Positions 1,556-7,852 of a DNA stretch of 64,000 bases are shown piece by piece. Position 1 is the stretch's first letter, and each line of letters begins with the position of its first letter. Origin of the DNA: Mytilinidion resinicola (taxonomy: Eukaryota; Ascomycota; Dothideomycetes; Mytilinidiales; Mytilinidiaceae); assembly GCF_010093595.1 (NCBI RefSeq), contig NW_022985441.1:248132-312131 (forward strand), read 5' to 3'. Under the pieces are notes generated by a model that was given only the letters and a program-made list of their open reading frames with translations, was not told the DNA's origin and did no database searches. Position numbers and translations under genes: made by a program.

Positions 1556-2550
1556 TCACCCACCCCCAGCCCCCCCCCCCCCAGCCCGCTCAAATGGATC
1601 CAGCGCCACCTCCGGCCTCCTCGCCCGCGCCCATTCCCTAATAGCATCGAAGTTTCGACACGTATGCACGACATCCCCATGCATGCGCATCGCGTTCTGC
1701 TCCTCGCTCCACTGCCACACCAGTGGCGAGATATCTGAGTGGCACATGAGGGATTGCCGGATGCTGTCGATGCAGTGCTCGACGTGGCTGTCGGCGAAGT
1801 CGTGCGGGATGCCGTTATGCGAGATGGTGGTGTAGCGGTCGGGGTAGCGGGACATGCGTATGTTATTCTGTAGATATTAGACTTAGTTGGGGGTGAAGCT
1901 GTGGGGAAAGGAGAAGTGGAAAGGGGAGGGAGGGGCGTACCAGGCAATGGAGTTGGTGAAACACGTCGAGTTCGACGAGGTATTGGCCGTCTAGTCCTGG
2001 GATTGGGCCGGTGCGGTTGGGGAGGAGGGTGGCTTGGGATTTGGGGATTGCGGACATGCCGACTGCGGCGGGTCAGATTCGTGGGCTTGAGGATCCATGG
2101 GTGCGAGGGAGATGAGTTTAGGACGTACAGTTGTAGAGATCCTCCCACAGCTTGTCACGTTCATCGCTGGGCGGGCCTTGTAATGGAGAAATGTCGTCGT
2201 TGAAGCCGTGGTTGAACTTTTTGATCTCATAGTGAACTGCATCTTGTGCGGGAGCTGGGGCATTGTGAGCCTCACGGTTAATATCACAAACCTACTAATT
2301 GAGACTTACAATAGAGCAGCTGGGAAGATGGCGGGCATGAGCTACAATTCCAGCCAGCGCCTTGGTCCGCTATGAAGACAGACTCTAGAAGTAGAAGGCA
2401 CCATGGTAGAATGATTGCACCTATAAGCCATTTTTGTCTCCAGAGACTTCGGGGTCGTATTTGCGCCTCTTCCCAAAATTTCTCATCATCCGAATGTTGG
2501 TCCTCGCTCTCCCGGTTGTCTTGCAATGGCTTATATGATGTGGAATCCAT
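1556..2550 (-). CDS. UstYa-family (DUF3328) oxidase, putative RiPP cyclase
   Basis: Four exons on the minus strand (2310-2550, 2129-2254, 1941-2062, 1556-1867) give 266 residues; introns are 55, 66 and 73 nt with good GT-AG borders. Visible features: a hydrophilic N-terminus with the family's YKPL motif, one membrane segment at about residues 41-60, and the two diagnostic HxxHC motifs, HQLHC at 158-162 and HVEHC at 191-195, which are thought to bind copper. Characterised relatives (UstYa/UstYb, PhomYa-type, cyclochlorotine enzymes) catalyse oxidative cyclisation or modification of peptides in the secretory pathway. The start at 2550 is chosen because MDSTSYKPL matches the family N-terminus; an upstream in-frame ATG at 2664 is less likely. 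The C-terminus is a Gly-rich tail from a poly-C tract and could be sensitive to indels. It is divergent from the repeat precursor starting at 3334, which is its likely substrate (inference). Confidence 0.9.
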
Positions 2551-3333
2551 GTCGAATAAATCAAAGTTGTTCACACTATGGACAATAGAGCATTCGTGTG
2601 TCAGTACTTCAGTTGTAGTCGGAGGTATAAGCCTGATAGTGGAAATTACCGTAAATCCGAGCAATTTGTCCTACCCATTTAGGTTAGCGGTGTTGCCAAA
2701 TGTCTCATTATATGAACTATTAAGGTCCATACTAAGTTGATGGCGTAAGAACAGATATATTACTGATCCAAAATCATTATTGCCTATGTAGGGAGGTAAC
2801 ACGATTGCCACGCCTATACTGAAAAGGATTGGACTCCGAGCCGAAAAAGGCTTCACATAGTGCCATGACGACAACTCTGGGAAGTATTCAGCAGCATATG
2901 CTATTTCAAGAGCTTGTTAAGTTGCCTATCGTATTTGAAATCCGATTTTCGGTATTCGCTTCTCTGCATCGGCTCTGAGCTGAGCCTCGTATCAAGGCGA
3001 GTTGGTGTGTACTACTTCCCCATTTGCTAGCTTCCCATGAACTCGTTCGGGAAGCCTAATTGAGGTTGTTGGTATCAACTGATCGTGACAGAAGGTGCCA
3101 GATGATAGGCTCTTCCTCGGGTTCGAAAGGGAAGGTCGCCCCCGGGGCTCGTAGATCGTGTTGACAAAGATTTAGTCGTTGCTTGATTGGACCTGTAGTC
3201 TGGCTACTAGATCGTAAGCATAAGAACATGACGAACAAGATATAGTCTGCGGGGGACACATTCGAAAAAGTGATATCACAGAAAACTCTATCAGCTTTTA
3301 ACCTACCGTAAAGAAGGGCCTTCCAACATAACC
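2551..3333. promoter_or_regulatory. Shared upstream region between UstYa gene and repeat precursor
   Basis: 783 bp between two divergent starts. Minus-strand ORFs of 67 codons at 2671-2874 and 3056-3259 show no recognisable domain and are probably chance. A bidirectional promoter is inferred from the layout alone; I could not identify a specific factor site. Confidence 0.4.
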
Positions 3334-3716
3334 ATGAAGATCACCTCTGCCATCGCCATGCCGGTGCTTCTCGCAGCCCTCGCCGCAGCAGCCCCATTGA
3401 AGGTCTATAGCCTGCTCATTCGAGACCTTGGAACACATACTGACGCTGTCTAGACCCGGGAAGCAGAGCCTCCATCCGTCGACGCCTCGAACGGGAGCGG
3501 ACTCTGGTGGAAGCGCAACGCCGAGGCCCCATCCGTCGACGCTTCAAACGGGAGCGGGCTCTGGTGGAAGCGTAATGCAGAGGCAAAGGCAAAAGCCGAG
3601 CCGCCAAGCGTCGACGCCTCGAACGGAAGTGGTCTCTGGTGGAAGCGTGAGGTTGGGTCGTGAGTTCTCCCAACAGAGTGTAAAATGGTTACTGACAGTG
3701 TGTACCTAGGTCTTGA
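3334..3716 (+). CDS. Secreted Kex2-processed repeat precursor, candidate dikaritin-type RiPP precursor
   Basis: Exons 3334-3402, 3454-3659 and 3710-3716. Intron 1 (3403-3453, 51 nt) has a weak GTCTAT donor but a CTGAC branch motif and TAG acceptor; if retained it puts an in-frame stop before all repeats. Intron 2 (3660-3709) has a GTGAGT donor and CTGAC branch; if unspliced, the reading frame stops at 3661-3663 instead, changing only the last residue. The protein is about 92-93 residues: a 20-residue hydrophobic Ala-rich signal peptide (MKITSAIAM start), then three identical copies of PSVDASNGSGLWW, each followed by Lys-Arg, with spacers EAEP, NAEA and NAEAKAKAEP. KR is a Kex2 site, and the spacers are wholly X-Ala or X-Pro dipeptides, the substrates of Ste13-type dipeptidyl aminopeptidases, so each unit would be trimmed to the same 13-mer. 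The copies differ only synonymously. The adjacent UstYa gene suggests an oxidatively modified or cyclised peptide. Alternatives are an unmodified secreted signal peptide or a pheromone-like product; the Cys and Gly-Gln motif of ascomycete alpha-pheromones is absent. Confidence 0.85.
3472..3648 (+). repeat. Three in-frame coding repeats of a 13-residue core plus Lys-Arg
   Basis: Core units at 3472-3510, 3529-3567 and 3604-3642, each followed by a Lys-Arg dibasic pair (3511-3516, 3568-3573, 3643-3648). Spacers are 4 and 10 residues. Pairwise nucleotide differences over the 45-nt units are 4, 6 and 7, all synonymous, including a TCC/AGC serine switch that needs two substitutions. Confidence 0.95.
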
Positions 3717-4265: not shown

Positions 4266-6492
4266 ATGGCTTCAGCCTCGTTCGCCTACGAAATGGACGA
4301 TTCAAGAATCGACAGCACTCTTTGCACTGACTATGCTGCTCTGAACCGGCCAGATCTACTGAAAGAATGCCGTAAACTTGTAATTATACCACTCGAAGCA
4401 AACGACACCGCCAGCGGCACCCACTATTCAGCATTCCAGCTCTGCCGTCTCTTCCGTCAAATGCAGCCGCCAGCCGAGCTAGAAGAAGACTCCGACGAGA
4501 GATCCCAACCAAGACTATGCGTAGTCCCAAGCCCCGGTGTATTTTACCACAAGCTCAGAGGTAAAGCTCTCCGGAAAGGTCTACCCCACATGCGCAATAA
4601 AGCACTTAGCAGCATCCTGCACTCCAAATTTGCCTCCAAGGTGCAAAAGTCCGTGGCTCCGCTGAAGAACAGCCGAACACAGTATCAAGTCGGTACGCTA
4701 GGCCTGGCTACACCTAAGCAGACTCAAAATCAGTCCGAATTCTCTCTCCGCCGGATAGATGAAAAGGCCGTTGATTTTGCGGCCATCAAAGGCTGGCTCG
4801 ATTTCTGTCTCGAAAATCATGCAGAATCCTGTAGAAACGCACACAAGAGCCGGTGGAATGGCTCAGTCTCATTGATTGTGCCTCGAGAAAGATAGTTCCG
4901 GCAGAGAGTGACCCGGAATATGTTGCACTCAGCTATGTGTGGGGGGCTTGTGGCAGCGATGCTAATCAGGAGCTTGAAACAGACTGTCTGCCCGAGAGGT
5001 TTCCAAATGCTATTGAGGACGCGATTGTGGCAACTCGCTCCTTAGCATTTCGGTATCTGTGGGTTGGCCGGTACTGTATTCCTCGGGATGGAGCCGAAAG
5101 GCATGCGCAGATATCGAATATGGATGTGATACACGCCCATGCCCAAGTAACGTTGGTCGCTGCAGCAGGTGAGGATGCTGATTATGGCCTTCCCGGAGTT
5201 GGCAGTCGGTTTCGTTTTGTCCAGCCGCATGCAGAGATCATGAACGAGATGGTAGTCTCCACACTGCCACACATAAAGGAGGCCCTGAAAGACTCTCGGT
5301 GGATGAAGAGAGCATGGACGTATCAGGAAGCTTTACTCTCCAGACGCCTTCTGATCTTCACAGACCACCAAGTCTTTTACGAATGTCGCGGGACGAACTG
5401 TTGCGAAAGCGTTGAAAAACCGCTGCAAAGCCTGCATACGAAAGACGGACAACGCCTCCGAGAGTTTGGCGAAGAGCGATTGTTTCCACACAACGGGCTC
5501 GGAAAGTATCCATGGGATGTTGCGACCCGAATTGCAGAGTACTCTGCGAGGACCTTATCATACGATTCAGACGCACTGGAAGCGATGCTAGGCATTTTCA
5601 GTGCCTTCACTCAGAGACAAGACCCAGTATTCCAATATTAGGGTGTCCCTATAGTTACAACGGCAAAGTCGCTTGCGTATAGGTCTGACAGCTGGAGAAG
5701 ATGGTCTACCAAATCACGGGGGGCTCAATTCGCTACTGGACTCTGTTGGAGTCATGCAGCGCCTGCGAGAAGACGACAAGGATTCCCGAGCTGGTCGTGG
5801 ACTGGCTGGGTTGGGCAGGTGCATGAGTCTACCCGCGAGAGCTATCGTACACGATCAATAGGTCCTTGGGAGTTCGGTCAGGATAGTATTGGAGAGAAAT
5901 GGCAGGAATTTGTCGACGAGGAAATGATAGAATTCTGGGGCGAGCGGATCGATGGACAAGAGCTAGTGTGGGAACAGGTTGTAAGGCAGTTTTTGAGGTT
6001 CGAGGTTCGAGGGGTGATGTCAACATATCGAAGGATATGTGGTCTCGTTTCGAGTCAAATCTAACGATGTAGCAAGGATACGGTATCCCTCTTCGGTAGA
6101 TGAAGTTATAAGAGAAGCACCCGAGTATCCTGAACAAAGAAGGCGGAACGAAGCACTGGATCGATGGGTATGCGCCGCTGCGTCTCTCGAAGATGGACGA
6201 ACCAGGGTCTAGTTTCTCCCGAAAGCTTCTAGAGAACCGAGTTTGGGAAGGCATGGTAATTTCGGATCGACAAGATCATCGTAATGTACGGCTCTGTTTC
6301 ACGGAGGAGCGCTATTCTCGATTCTTAATGGTGTTCGAAGAGCATGATGGTTTTGAAGAGAGAATCGGTACTGTGGACTTAGGGCACACTTGCGTCCCTT
6401 TAGATCCCCTCGAAGATGGCAAGTCGCATAGCTTCGTGGTAGACGAAGCTCCGATCGTTGAAGTAACGAGACGGAAGATTAGATTTGGTTGA
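4266..6492 (+). pseudogene. Decayed HET-domain (heterokaryon incompatibility) gene
   Basis: Conceptually a HET-domain protein, a family controlling allorecognition cell death in Pezizomycotina. The first open part (4266-4895, MASASFAY start) leads into the HET domain, which begins in another frame at about 4853 with LIDCASRKIVPAES, then YVALSYVWG, RYLWVGRYCI, QISNMDVIHAHAQVTLVAAAG, DYGLPGVGSR and WMKRAWTYQEALLSRR. After a TAG at 5639-5641, where the family has Trp in YWGVP, the same frame resumes as GVPIVT, then FATGLCWSHAAPARRR and GFPSWSWTGW. Two further frame changes near 6020-6030 and 6150 are needed to join the C-terminal part ending at 6492. The Asp usual in the LWVD motif is Gly. No GT-AG intron explains the 4850 shift. 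The remains end 11 bp from the THG1 stop codon. Confidence 0.85.
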
Positions 6493-6503
6493 GGTGAAGG
6501 CGA

Positions 6504-7852
6504 TCATGGAGCCTTTCCAGACAGAATCCAAGGCCTAGCCTCCCAGAATTCATCTCTGATGATGTCGATGTGTGCTACAACGATGCGAGCTTTAACACGC
6601 CGTTTCCGATCTCTCTCGGTGGCTGTTTTCGAAAGTGACTGGGGAGGTCCTGCATCATCGGGTGGGTGCGAGGATAGCCGCTTTGTGGAGGCTGAAGCTG
6701 GCGGTATTGCGGCCGCTTCCGTCAAGGCGTTTGGAGCCGTGGAAGGTATGTCGAACTGGTTTTATCAGTATCGCCGCGGTGTTTGTGAAAGAACTTTGGA
6801 TCCCAAACTTACGTCTCGAAAAACCACACTCCCTTTTTTGTACATATCTGGCTCGTTGTTGTAGTTAATCTTGAACCTCGAAAAGAGGATCTCATTCTTA
6901 TCAGCAGATAAAGTCCCCACGAGCTCTTTTTCCGCTGCTTTTGCATCCAAACCGCCAAGCTGGACGAGAGCCCAAAAGGTGGTATTGTAGAGATTGTTGA
7001 TGTGGCCTATTACATATCAGATCTGCATTGAGACATATTAGAAATCATAGACTTACAATCAACCTGCCTCCAACTCATATAATCTCTCAAATTCCTCGCA
7101 CTAGGATACACCACCGCCCTTCCATCAAAGCTAGGCAGTGGAGGTGTAAGAGGGGCATCCGGGAAATACTTCGGCCACAAGTAGACGTAATACGAACTGA
7201 AAGTTGATACAATCGTAGTAGTAAGTTTACTGTGACTTCATCAGAATCTCCATCCGTTGAAAAAGAGGTTCGAGCATTACATACCTCGCTCGCCGCTCGA
7301 ACAGCGTGCAATCCTTGTGAAACACAAAGCTAGTTGAACATGAGTACAGATAAATGAAGGAAGGGTAAGGGGGTTTGACATACCTGAACTCATCACTAAC
7401 CCCATAGGCCACCACCAAATCCGGCAACTCTCGCATCACGCCGTCAGCGGCTGCGTTCATGAGCTCCAGCGCTTGAACATCGTTTGGTTTCTTGAACTTG
7501 TATTTTGTCGTAAATCTAAGCCAGGTCTTGTGTCAGCTACAGACTACGAAGAAGCTTTCTTCCGAATCAGAAACACGCAGAAAATATCGACTTCAAAAAG
7601 GGACTCCGCTTAAATAACGAGACATCATGTTTTCGCCTAAAATTTAACAAGCAATATCATAGAGGAGATGCCGAGATAGCTTTAAAAGTGCACATACCCA
7701 TGAAAACCTCTCCCATCGATCCTCACCACAATCCACGTATTCGGCAGCAAGACGTCTGGTTGCTCGAACGCACGGACGTACTCGTATCTAGCCCAGATTA
7801 GCATATACACCGTTCAAATCGCTACAATAACCACGTACTTTGAGTTCGCCAT
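6504..7852 (-). CDS. THG1: tRNA(His) guanylyltransferase Thg1
   Basis: Adds the essential G-1 to the 5' end of tRNA-His by 3'-5' nucleotide addition. Seven exons: 7839-7852, 7698-7787, 7384-7515, 7285-7329, 7057-7229, 6813-7006 and 6504-6755; 299 residues, close to the usual fungal length. Introns are 50-57 nt except intron 2 (7516-7697, 182 nt). Diagnostic motifs are RIDGRGFH with metal-binding D29, YGVSDEFSFVF with D76, the [18 protein letters not shown] block, and [25 protein letters not shown]. The C-terminal [20 protein letters not shown] stretch matches fungal Thg1. The first exon is only 14 nt and was chosen because [16 protein letters not shown] restores the conserved N-terminus. The protein lacks the Gly-rich C-terminal variation seen in bacterial homologues. 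Identification is firm; exon edges are from splice motifs and frame. Confidence 0.93.

Follow-up and report, generated by a model that had tools for sequence, protein, structure and literature searches.

To our knowledge, few enzymes of the DUF3328 (UstYa) family have a known substrate, and those with known substrates react mostly at Tyr or Phe. The original definition of the dikaritins, which are ribosomally synthesised and post-translationally modified peptides (RiPPs), includes an accessory tyrosinase, methyltransferase, peptidase or transporter, and not every working cluster need contain them all (PMC12048977). In a survey of Kex2-processed repeat proteins (KEPs), a DUF3328 gene was reported among the 15 nearest genes of 1758 of the 7878 KEPs (22%), at a mean distance of 3.09 genes (PMC7329392). 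The cross-link of asperipin-2a is made by UstY enzymes via a dicopper site (PMC12186524). The cyclochlorotine hydroxylase CctR is described as a dimer bound to the membrane; each monomer carries two copper ions, the reaction needs O2 and electrons, and activity is lost when the His and Cys of its motifs are changed (PMC12435403). An origin of the dikaritins from pheromone-like repeat proteins has also been raised (PMC7329392; PMC9233826). The locus reported in this work lies in a 64-kb stretch of the Mytilinidion resinicola genome (NW_022985441.1, positions 248,132 to 312,131, referred to as the window) and consists of a UstYa/DUF3328 gene and an adjoining Kex2-repeat precursor gene. We consider it reasonably probable, judging from the sequence, that this pair is a dikaritin-type RiPP locus that gives a UstYa-oxidised peptide.

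The proteins of both genes are 100% identical to the public records of M. resinicola, which is the source of the window. As in the dikaritins, the repeat precursor has a DUF3328 gene close by (783 bp). The features of the precursor gene and of the region between both genes are as follows.

2551-3333, no strand: 783-bp divergent intergenic region, start codons at 2550 (minus) and 3334 (plus)
3334-3715, plus: Kex2-processed repeat precursor gene, exon 1 3334-3402, exon 2 3454-3659, then a GTGAGT donor
3334-3393, plus: putative signal peptide MKITSAIAMPVLLAALAAAA (hydropathy, best 9-residue window VLLAALAAA)
3460-3471, plus: STE13-like spacer EA-EP after Thr-Arg (sequence)
3472-3510, plus: core copy 1, PSVDASNGSGLWW (repeat comparison)
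3511-3516, plus: Kex2 site KR 1 (sequence)
3517-3528, plus: STE13-like spacer NA-EA (sequence)
3529-3567, plus: core copy 2, PSVDASNGSGLWW (repeat comparison)
3568-3573, plus: Kex2 site KR 2 (sequence)
3574-3603, plus: STE13-like spacer NA-EA-KA-KA-EP (sequence)
3604-3642, plus: core copy 3, PSVDASNGSGLWW (repeat comparison)
3643-3648, plus: Kex2 site KR 3 (sequence)

The core PSVDASNGSGLWW ends in -SGLWW, and the two C-terminal Trp are its only aromatic residues. An earlier reading made from the letters of the window (the sequence-only reading) had described three identical 13-residue units that end in Trp-Trp and are each followed by Lys-Arg, and exactly these copies and KR sites are located at 3472-3648. 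The PSVDASNGSGLWW repeat is the longest direct-repeat family within the first 6 kb of the window. The core copies exhibit 3, 5 and 7 nucleotide differences between them and 0 amino-acid changes, and 7 random substitutions gave an all-synonymous outcome in 1 of 200,000 simulations. Because the DNA copies differ to this extent without any amino-acid change, PSVDASNGSGLWW is under selection; judged from these differences, the core is a selected peptide and neither a fresh duplication nor a simple repeat. A repeat scan that looked for similar 10-residue stretches in front of dibasic sites gave 0 matches in 30 randomised 64-kb sequences and no further match in the remaining ~57 kb of the window. 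KEPs are defined by at least three repeats flanked by KR, RR or KK and by a signal peptide; in the precursor, KR follows every one of the three identical 13-mers, and hydropathy indicates a signal peptide.

Intron 1 of the precursor is 51 bases long. The 3' end has three options: the longer public model, an unspliced form that stops at 3661-3663, or a form with a small last exon at 3710-3715. The public model P0001 (134 amino acids) agrees over the first 92/93 residues with the model of the sequence-only reading and then differs by splice, and because of this agreement intron 1 and all cores are common to both models. P0001 is named 'Concanavalin A-like' at its source, which looks like automatic misnaming, and it has no Pfam match.

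The UstYa gene is located on the other strand, with the following features.

1556-2550, minus: UstYa/DUF3328 gene, four exons, 266 amino acids (spliced translation; public protein P0002; PF11807)
2310-2550, 2129-2254, 1941-2062 and 1556-1867, minus: UstYa exons (spliced translation)
2356-2445, minus: predicted membrane helix, residues 36-65 (AlphaFold2 helix; best 19-residue hydropathy window from residue 42)
1944-1958, minus: first HxxHC motif, HQLHC, residues 158-162 (H158, H161 and C162 invariant in a 65-sequence alignment)
1772-1786, minus: second HxxHC motif, HVEHC, residues 191-195 (H194 and C195 invariant, H191 at least 90%, in the same 65 sequences)

The spliced translation is identical to P0002 at every residue. 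Its match to PF11807 (UstYa) has an E-value of 1.6e-51 and 175.7 bits, compared with a curated cut-off of 25. This match, the two HxxHC motifs and the predicted N-terminal membrane helix are the characteristics of the UstYa/DUF3328 family. Of the 119 other homologues listed, 64 were aligned with the window protein. In the AlphaFold2 monomer model (mean predicted local distance difference test score (pLDDT) 77, predicted template modelling score (pTM) 0.62), the motifs are located on helices 155-169 and 189-205, and the layout is like the plan of CctR, where an N-terminal membrane helix is followed by the two motifs (PMC12435403). No solved structure was identified by sequence or profile, and a fold search with Foldseek gave nothing convincing (lowest E 0.5). 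Because of the family biochemistry of CctR and asperipin-2a and the helix and motif layout of the model, the window UstYa is likely a copper oxidase that faces the lumen of the organelle through which the precursor passes. The sequence-only reading had placed a DUF3328 protein with both HxxHC motifs 783 bp from the precursor and divergent to it, and the exons, PF11807, the motifs and the start codons are all in accordance with that. The dikaritin-like architecture that it had proposed is likewise found here, in the hydrophobic N-terminus (by hydropathy), the Kex2 repeats and the adjoining DUF3328 gene.

The nearest UstYa relatives listed are a protein of Aulographum hederae (P0004, 162 residues) with 72% identity over half of the query and a protein of Mariannaea sp. 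PMI_226 (P0003) with 59% identity over 65%. Both relatives join the window UstYa in a tree of 120 homologues, with Shimodaira-Hasegawa-like approximate likelihood ratio test (SH-aLRT) values of 97 and 97. UstYa proteins carry the source name 'Tat pathway signal sequence', which looks like automatic misnaming. A run of 13 C is located at 1570-1582, in the last UstYa exon just 5' of the stop, and encodes a Gly-rich tail; a sequencing slip in this run would alter the UstYa C-terminus.

A decayed or silent locus without any product is very improbable given these features. Both frames are intact and match the public gene models, the copies of the core have diverged in DNA but still encode one peptide, and the catalytic HxxHC residues are kept, being invariant or nearly so. 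The same features favour an oxidised peptide.

The pairing of UstYa genes with repeat precursors is not confined to the window. The genome has at least 32 UstYa exon matches, and all 32 listed exon matches are covered by 20 neighbourhoods, which are the window and 19 others (one spans 8.5 kb, the rest 10 kb each). Kex2-repeat precursors were identified in 7/20 neighbourhoods (the window, L016, L017, L019, L020, L026 and L027) and none were identified by the same repeat scan in 12/20. The neighbourhood L025 was left out; it has two alike units in a long frame judged to be of tetratricopeptide type, and also in its opposite frame. Nor does the count of seven include matches in frames opposite to, or shifted from, the repeats of the window, L017 and L020. 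By automatic count, the alike units number 3 in the window, 5 in L017 and 4 in L026, and only 2 in L016, L019, L020 and L027 because the units of those four vary. The six other loci are as follows.

L016: repeat with SSYA in a UstYa neighbourhood
L017, G000:C21:223450-233449: precursor at 6566-7156 with six units with QYSHLY or SYSHLY; UstYa gene adjoining
L019: Tyr-rich repeat of GSYRPY type in a UstYa neighbourhood
L020: repeat with AYKALAEN or AYNALAEN; several UstYa-like matches
L026, G000:C3:909450-919449: precursor at 6457-7013; UstYa at 4401-5393, ~1.06 kb upstream on the same strand
L027, G000:C27:52250-62249: precursor at 6404-6793; UstYa on the minus strand from 5516, ~0.89 kb apart and divergent as in the window

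The 20 neighbourhoods make up ~0.4% of the 47.1-Mb genome. An unlinked precursor would rarely fall within such a fraction. The recurrence in 7/20 neighbourhoods favours an oxidised peptide, and it agrees with the DUF3328 enrichment around repeat precursors in the survey (PMC7329392). It also bears on the alternative that the window UstYa acts in a non-RiPP pathway, such as a nonribosomal peptide or polyketide cluster that perhaps lies on the left flank, and that the repeat protein is an unrelated secreted protein. DUF3328 proteins also act in the cyclochlorotine, astin and atpenin pathways (PMC12048977; PMC12435403), and the sequence adjoining the window on its left consists of N for 24,395 bases (L009, L010 and the second part of L011), where a larger cluster is possible. 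However, independent coincidence fails to explain the Kex2-repeat precursors at six other UstYa neighbourhoods, and we consider this alternative quite improbable.

Two other precursors of the genome are Trp-terminated, with the ends -QSGDW (L026) and -GSGQW (L027). The L026 precursor has five units like SEDLAFWQSGDW / EASEDLAFWQSGDW between KR sites, and the L027 units are QDEVDGSGQW, HDKVGGDGHW and QDEVEGGGDW, each followed by KR. By BLAST among 10 UstYa cores of the same genome, those of L026 and L027 are closest to that of the window (122 and 92.8 bits). When one unit of each locus was compared with the window unit, the score was reached by 39 (L026) and 12 (L027) of 1000 shuffles, and by 469 (L016), 584 (L017), 927 (L019) and 149 (L020) of 1000 for the other loci. 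The likeness of the L026 and L027 units to the window unit is weak, and no homology is claimed. The pattern GSGxWKR has 26 matches over the genome and 24 in the reversed control; because both counts are about equal, it gives no further family members. A co-evolving Trp clade of UstYa proteins was considered and dropped, since a 25-row tree (11 own, 14 public) did not group the three Trp-type loci.

The spacers of the precursor point to a different kind of peptide. The residues before each 13-mer form nine dipeptides that all end in Ala or Pro (EA-EP, NA-EA and NA-EA-KA-KA-EP), which is the STE13 signature. This XA/XP pattern recurs in 3 of 200,000 shuffles of the 18 spacer residues and in 0 of 200,000 draws from the mature protein; the pattern itself is clean, though kinship among the spacers means that these trials overstate independence. 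Because all residues between the cleavage site and the 13-mer fit the STE13 rule, the signature predicts that all three copies mature to one 13-mer. The sequence-only reading had mentioned neither the signature in all three spacers nor the linear Trp-ended KEP peptides known from other fungi.

Such a signature raises the main alternative, that of a linear signal that resembles an alpha pheromone, where unmodified PSVDASNGSGLWW is released by Kex2, Kex1 and STE13 and UstYa has another substrate. In Ascomycota the signature is described as generally dedicated to alpha pheromones, whose peptides are unmodified (PMC6339444). Linear KEP peptides with a C-terminal Trp were found by mass spectrometry in mushroom fruiting bodies (SGTGEASAADW, MSGVAADW and SGVAADW), a further one, QYKAPSW, came from a yeast expression host, and some such peptides are trimmed in the STE13 manner (PMC9769878). 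Terminal Trp is likewise present in the window core (-SGLWW) and in two other precursors of the genome (-QSGDW and -GSGQW). On the other hand, the core lacks the two Cys and the PYGxPxG motif of Dothideomycete alpha pheromones (PMC6339444), although XA/XP after KR is present, and KEPs annotated as mating factor or pheromone are reported to have no DUF3328 neighbours, with 3 exceptions (PMC7329392). The recurrence of UstYa-precursor pairs in 7/20 neighbourhoods is also unfavourable to this alternative. At L017, a Tyr-repeat precursor with five clean DA-[QKN]P spacers also stands beside a UstYa gene; because this locus combines both, the STE13 signature is compatible with modification. One match to the proprotein-convertase domain was found in the genome.

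A possible two-Cys alpha pheromone was also identified elsewhere in the genome, which is a further point against a linear signal at the window locus.

L046, minus strand near position 540335 of G000:C23: a long frame rich in Pro and Ser that closes with two WCPYPGxxC units

The second unit of L046 directly follows RR and the other lies one residue after KK. Three scans of the genome with alpha-pheromone patterns gave 5, 21 and 11 sites, compared with 2, 37 and 7 in reversed controls. The sites inspected were 5/5 of the first scan and 2/21 of the second, and all but L046 are not clear precursors. Taking both sides together, we hold the linear signal to be unlikely, though it deserves serious weight.

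Under the preferred reading of an oxidised peptide, the pathway would run as follows. The precursor, with its hydrophobic N-terminus, would enter the secretory pathway. Following the grammar of the repeats, Kex2 would cleave after each Lys-Arg, Kex1 would strip the basic residues, and a dipeptidyl aminopeptidase of STE13 type would trim the EA, EP, NA and KA dipeptides to release the identical 13-mer PSVDASNGSGLWW from all copies. The adjoining UstYa, with one membrane helix and two HxxHC motifs, would then oxidise the peptide with O2, as family biochemistry suggests. At Leu-Trp-Trp, the likeliest change would be either a hydroxylation or the removal of two or four H. Such a removal could take the form of a Trp-Trp link, a Trp-Leu link or a dehydrogenation, and the exact chemistry is a guess. 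The calculated [M+H]+ values are 1375.628 for the linear 13-mer, 1373.612 with two H fewer and 1371.596 with four H fewer. Trp as the reaction site is equally a guess, proposed because the core contains neither Tyr nor Phe. Trp-containing cross-linked UstY peptides from Aspergillus (asperigimycins) have reportedly been described, and the papers listed in our literature search did not include that report. The most specific version, in which a pheromone-like peptide trimmed by STE13 would undergo dicopper oxidation by UstYa at the C-terminal Leu-Trp-Trp to give a Trp-Trp or Trp-Leu linked 13-mer, is doubtful.

Several observations weigh against an oxidised peptide. The strongest are the STE13 signature of the spacers, which points to a linear peptide resembling a pheromone, and the linear Trp-ended peptides known from repeat precursors of mushrooms. 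The core lacks Tyr and Phe, which are the usual reaction sites of dikaritins, though usual does not mean required. In the survey, 65.6% of DUF3328-associated repeats contain Tyr compared with 38.2% otherwise, and W is reported as not enriched beside DUF3328 genes, at 20.5% (of 1758 KEPs) compared with 24.5% (PMC7329392). No tyrosinase or S41 peptidase match was found within the window; the sole tyrosinase match on contig C5 lies ~117 kb from the precursor, and no S41 peptidase match was found on that contig. Among the 16 window proteins scanned, there is no methyltransferase and no accessory gene nearby, and a major facilitator superfamily transporter is located at 58 kb; the flanking 24,395 positions on the left are N. 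Four of the seven precursors (L016, L019, L020 and L027) were recognised only at the looser limit of two alike units. The three Trp-type UstYa proteins grouped in 0% of 200 bootstrap trees (one change allowed), a result with which a single origin is still compatible as far as the strongly supported branches are concerned. Finally, UstYa relatives exist in Aulographum and Mariannaea, and the pairing of UstYa with the precursor is known here from M. resinicola only.

The search for precursor homologues that the sequence-only reading had suggested identified nothing but the species' own record in ~5.8 billion proteins; it scored the 264 candidates with short exact word matches and could miss distant homologues. 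The L026 precursor similarly has no homologue among 3648 candidates. An orphan precursor is normal for KEPs because 2560 of the 7878 surveyed KEPs are also reported without homologues (PMC7329392). The titles and abstract openings of the literature naming M. resinicola include none on such peptides. The claim of an undescribed locus stands in part: no related precursor emerged from the 264 candidates, whereas surveys had already noted Trp repeats next to DUF3328 genes (KEP type P-3, PMC7329392), which are not new as such. The locus is a believable candidate for a further member of the dikaritin-type pathways. Against its own genome, the window precursor gave two weak matches only (E 0.022 and 0.18), and one of them, L013, was rejected as it shows no repeat precursor. 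A link to type P-3 through the UstYa proteins of Psilocybe, Galerina and Cladophialophora was also rejected, as these are not near the window protein in the 120-homologue tree.

Two other features were observed around the gene pair. An open reading frame at 49-1086, on the left edge of the window, is perhaps the end of a larger protein and could belong to the cluster. It has no Pfam match and no convincing PDB match, and it may resemble DHCR24-like flavin adenine dinucleotide (FAD) oxidoreductases. A HET domain (PF06985, E 2e-31) is located at 4835-5638, downstream of the precursor, in a gene that appears to be spread over several frames.

If the most specific version given above is true, a UstYa-oxidised 13-mer trimmed by STE13 would stand as a living intermediate, with unmodified signalling KEPs on one side and dikaritins on the other. 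It would also be one of several such pairs in the genome, where L017 has both signatures and L026 and L027 are also Trp-ended. A STE13 signature that adjoins an oxidase gene bears on the proposed origin of dikaritins from pheromone-like repeat proteins. With just two genes and one repeated core whose only aromatic residues are Trp, the locus would allow a clean test of Trp as a substrate of the copper enzyme.

Compared with known systems, the locus is most similar to the dikaritins (ustiloxin, phomopsin, asperipin-2a and victorin), which exhibit secreted, Kex2-flanked repeated cores and a nearby DUF3328/UstYa gene with two HxxHC motifs. Victorin is cyclised between the side chain of a C-terminal Phe and an internal Leu (PMC9233826), which is a loose parallel to the Leu-Trp-Trp end of the window core. 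Unlike the dikaritins, the window has a core without Tyr or Phe, a single UstYa gene, no match to tyrosinase or S41 within its length, and a precursor without a relative in the protein collection. The STE13-signature KEPs with C-terminal Trp (Pleurotus and Coprinopsis, with Lentinula for the Trp end; PMC9769878) are similar in their Kex2 repeats, XA/XP spacers and Trp end, but the peptides recovered there were linear or had minimal modification, and UstY/DUF3328 has 0 mentions in the main text of that report. KEP type P-3 (Fonsecaea, Cladophialophora, Galerina, Psilocybe and Coprinellus; PMC7329392) also exhibits a Trp repeat beside DUF3328, with 4/7 members having a DUF3328 gene; the type was grouped by homology and is compared here by description only, and unlike in the window its Trp is accompanied by Pro. 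CctR is similar to the window UstYa in its single membrane helix and HxxHC(x)nHxxHC arrangement; unlike the activity proposed here, it acts on a nonribosomal peptide. Binuclear copper and O2-dependent oxidation were shown for CctR itself (PMC12435403).

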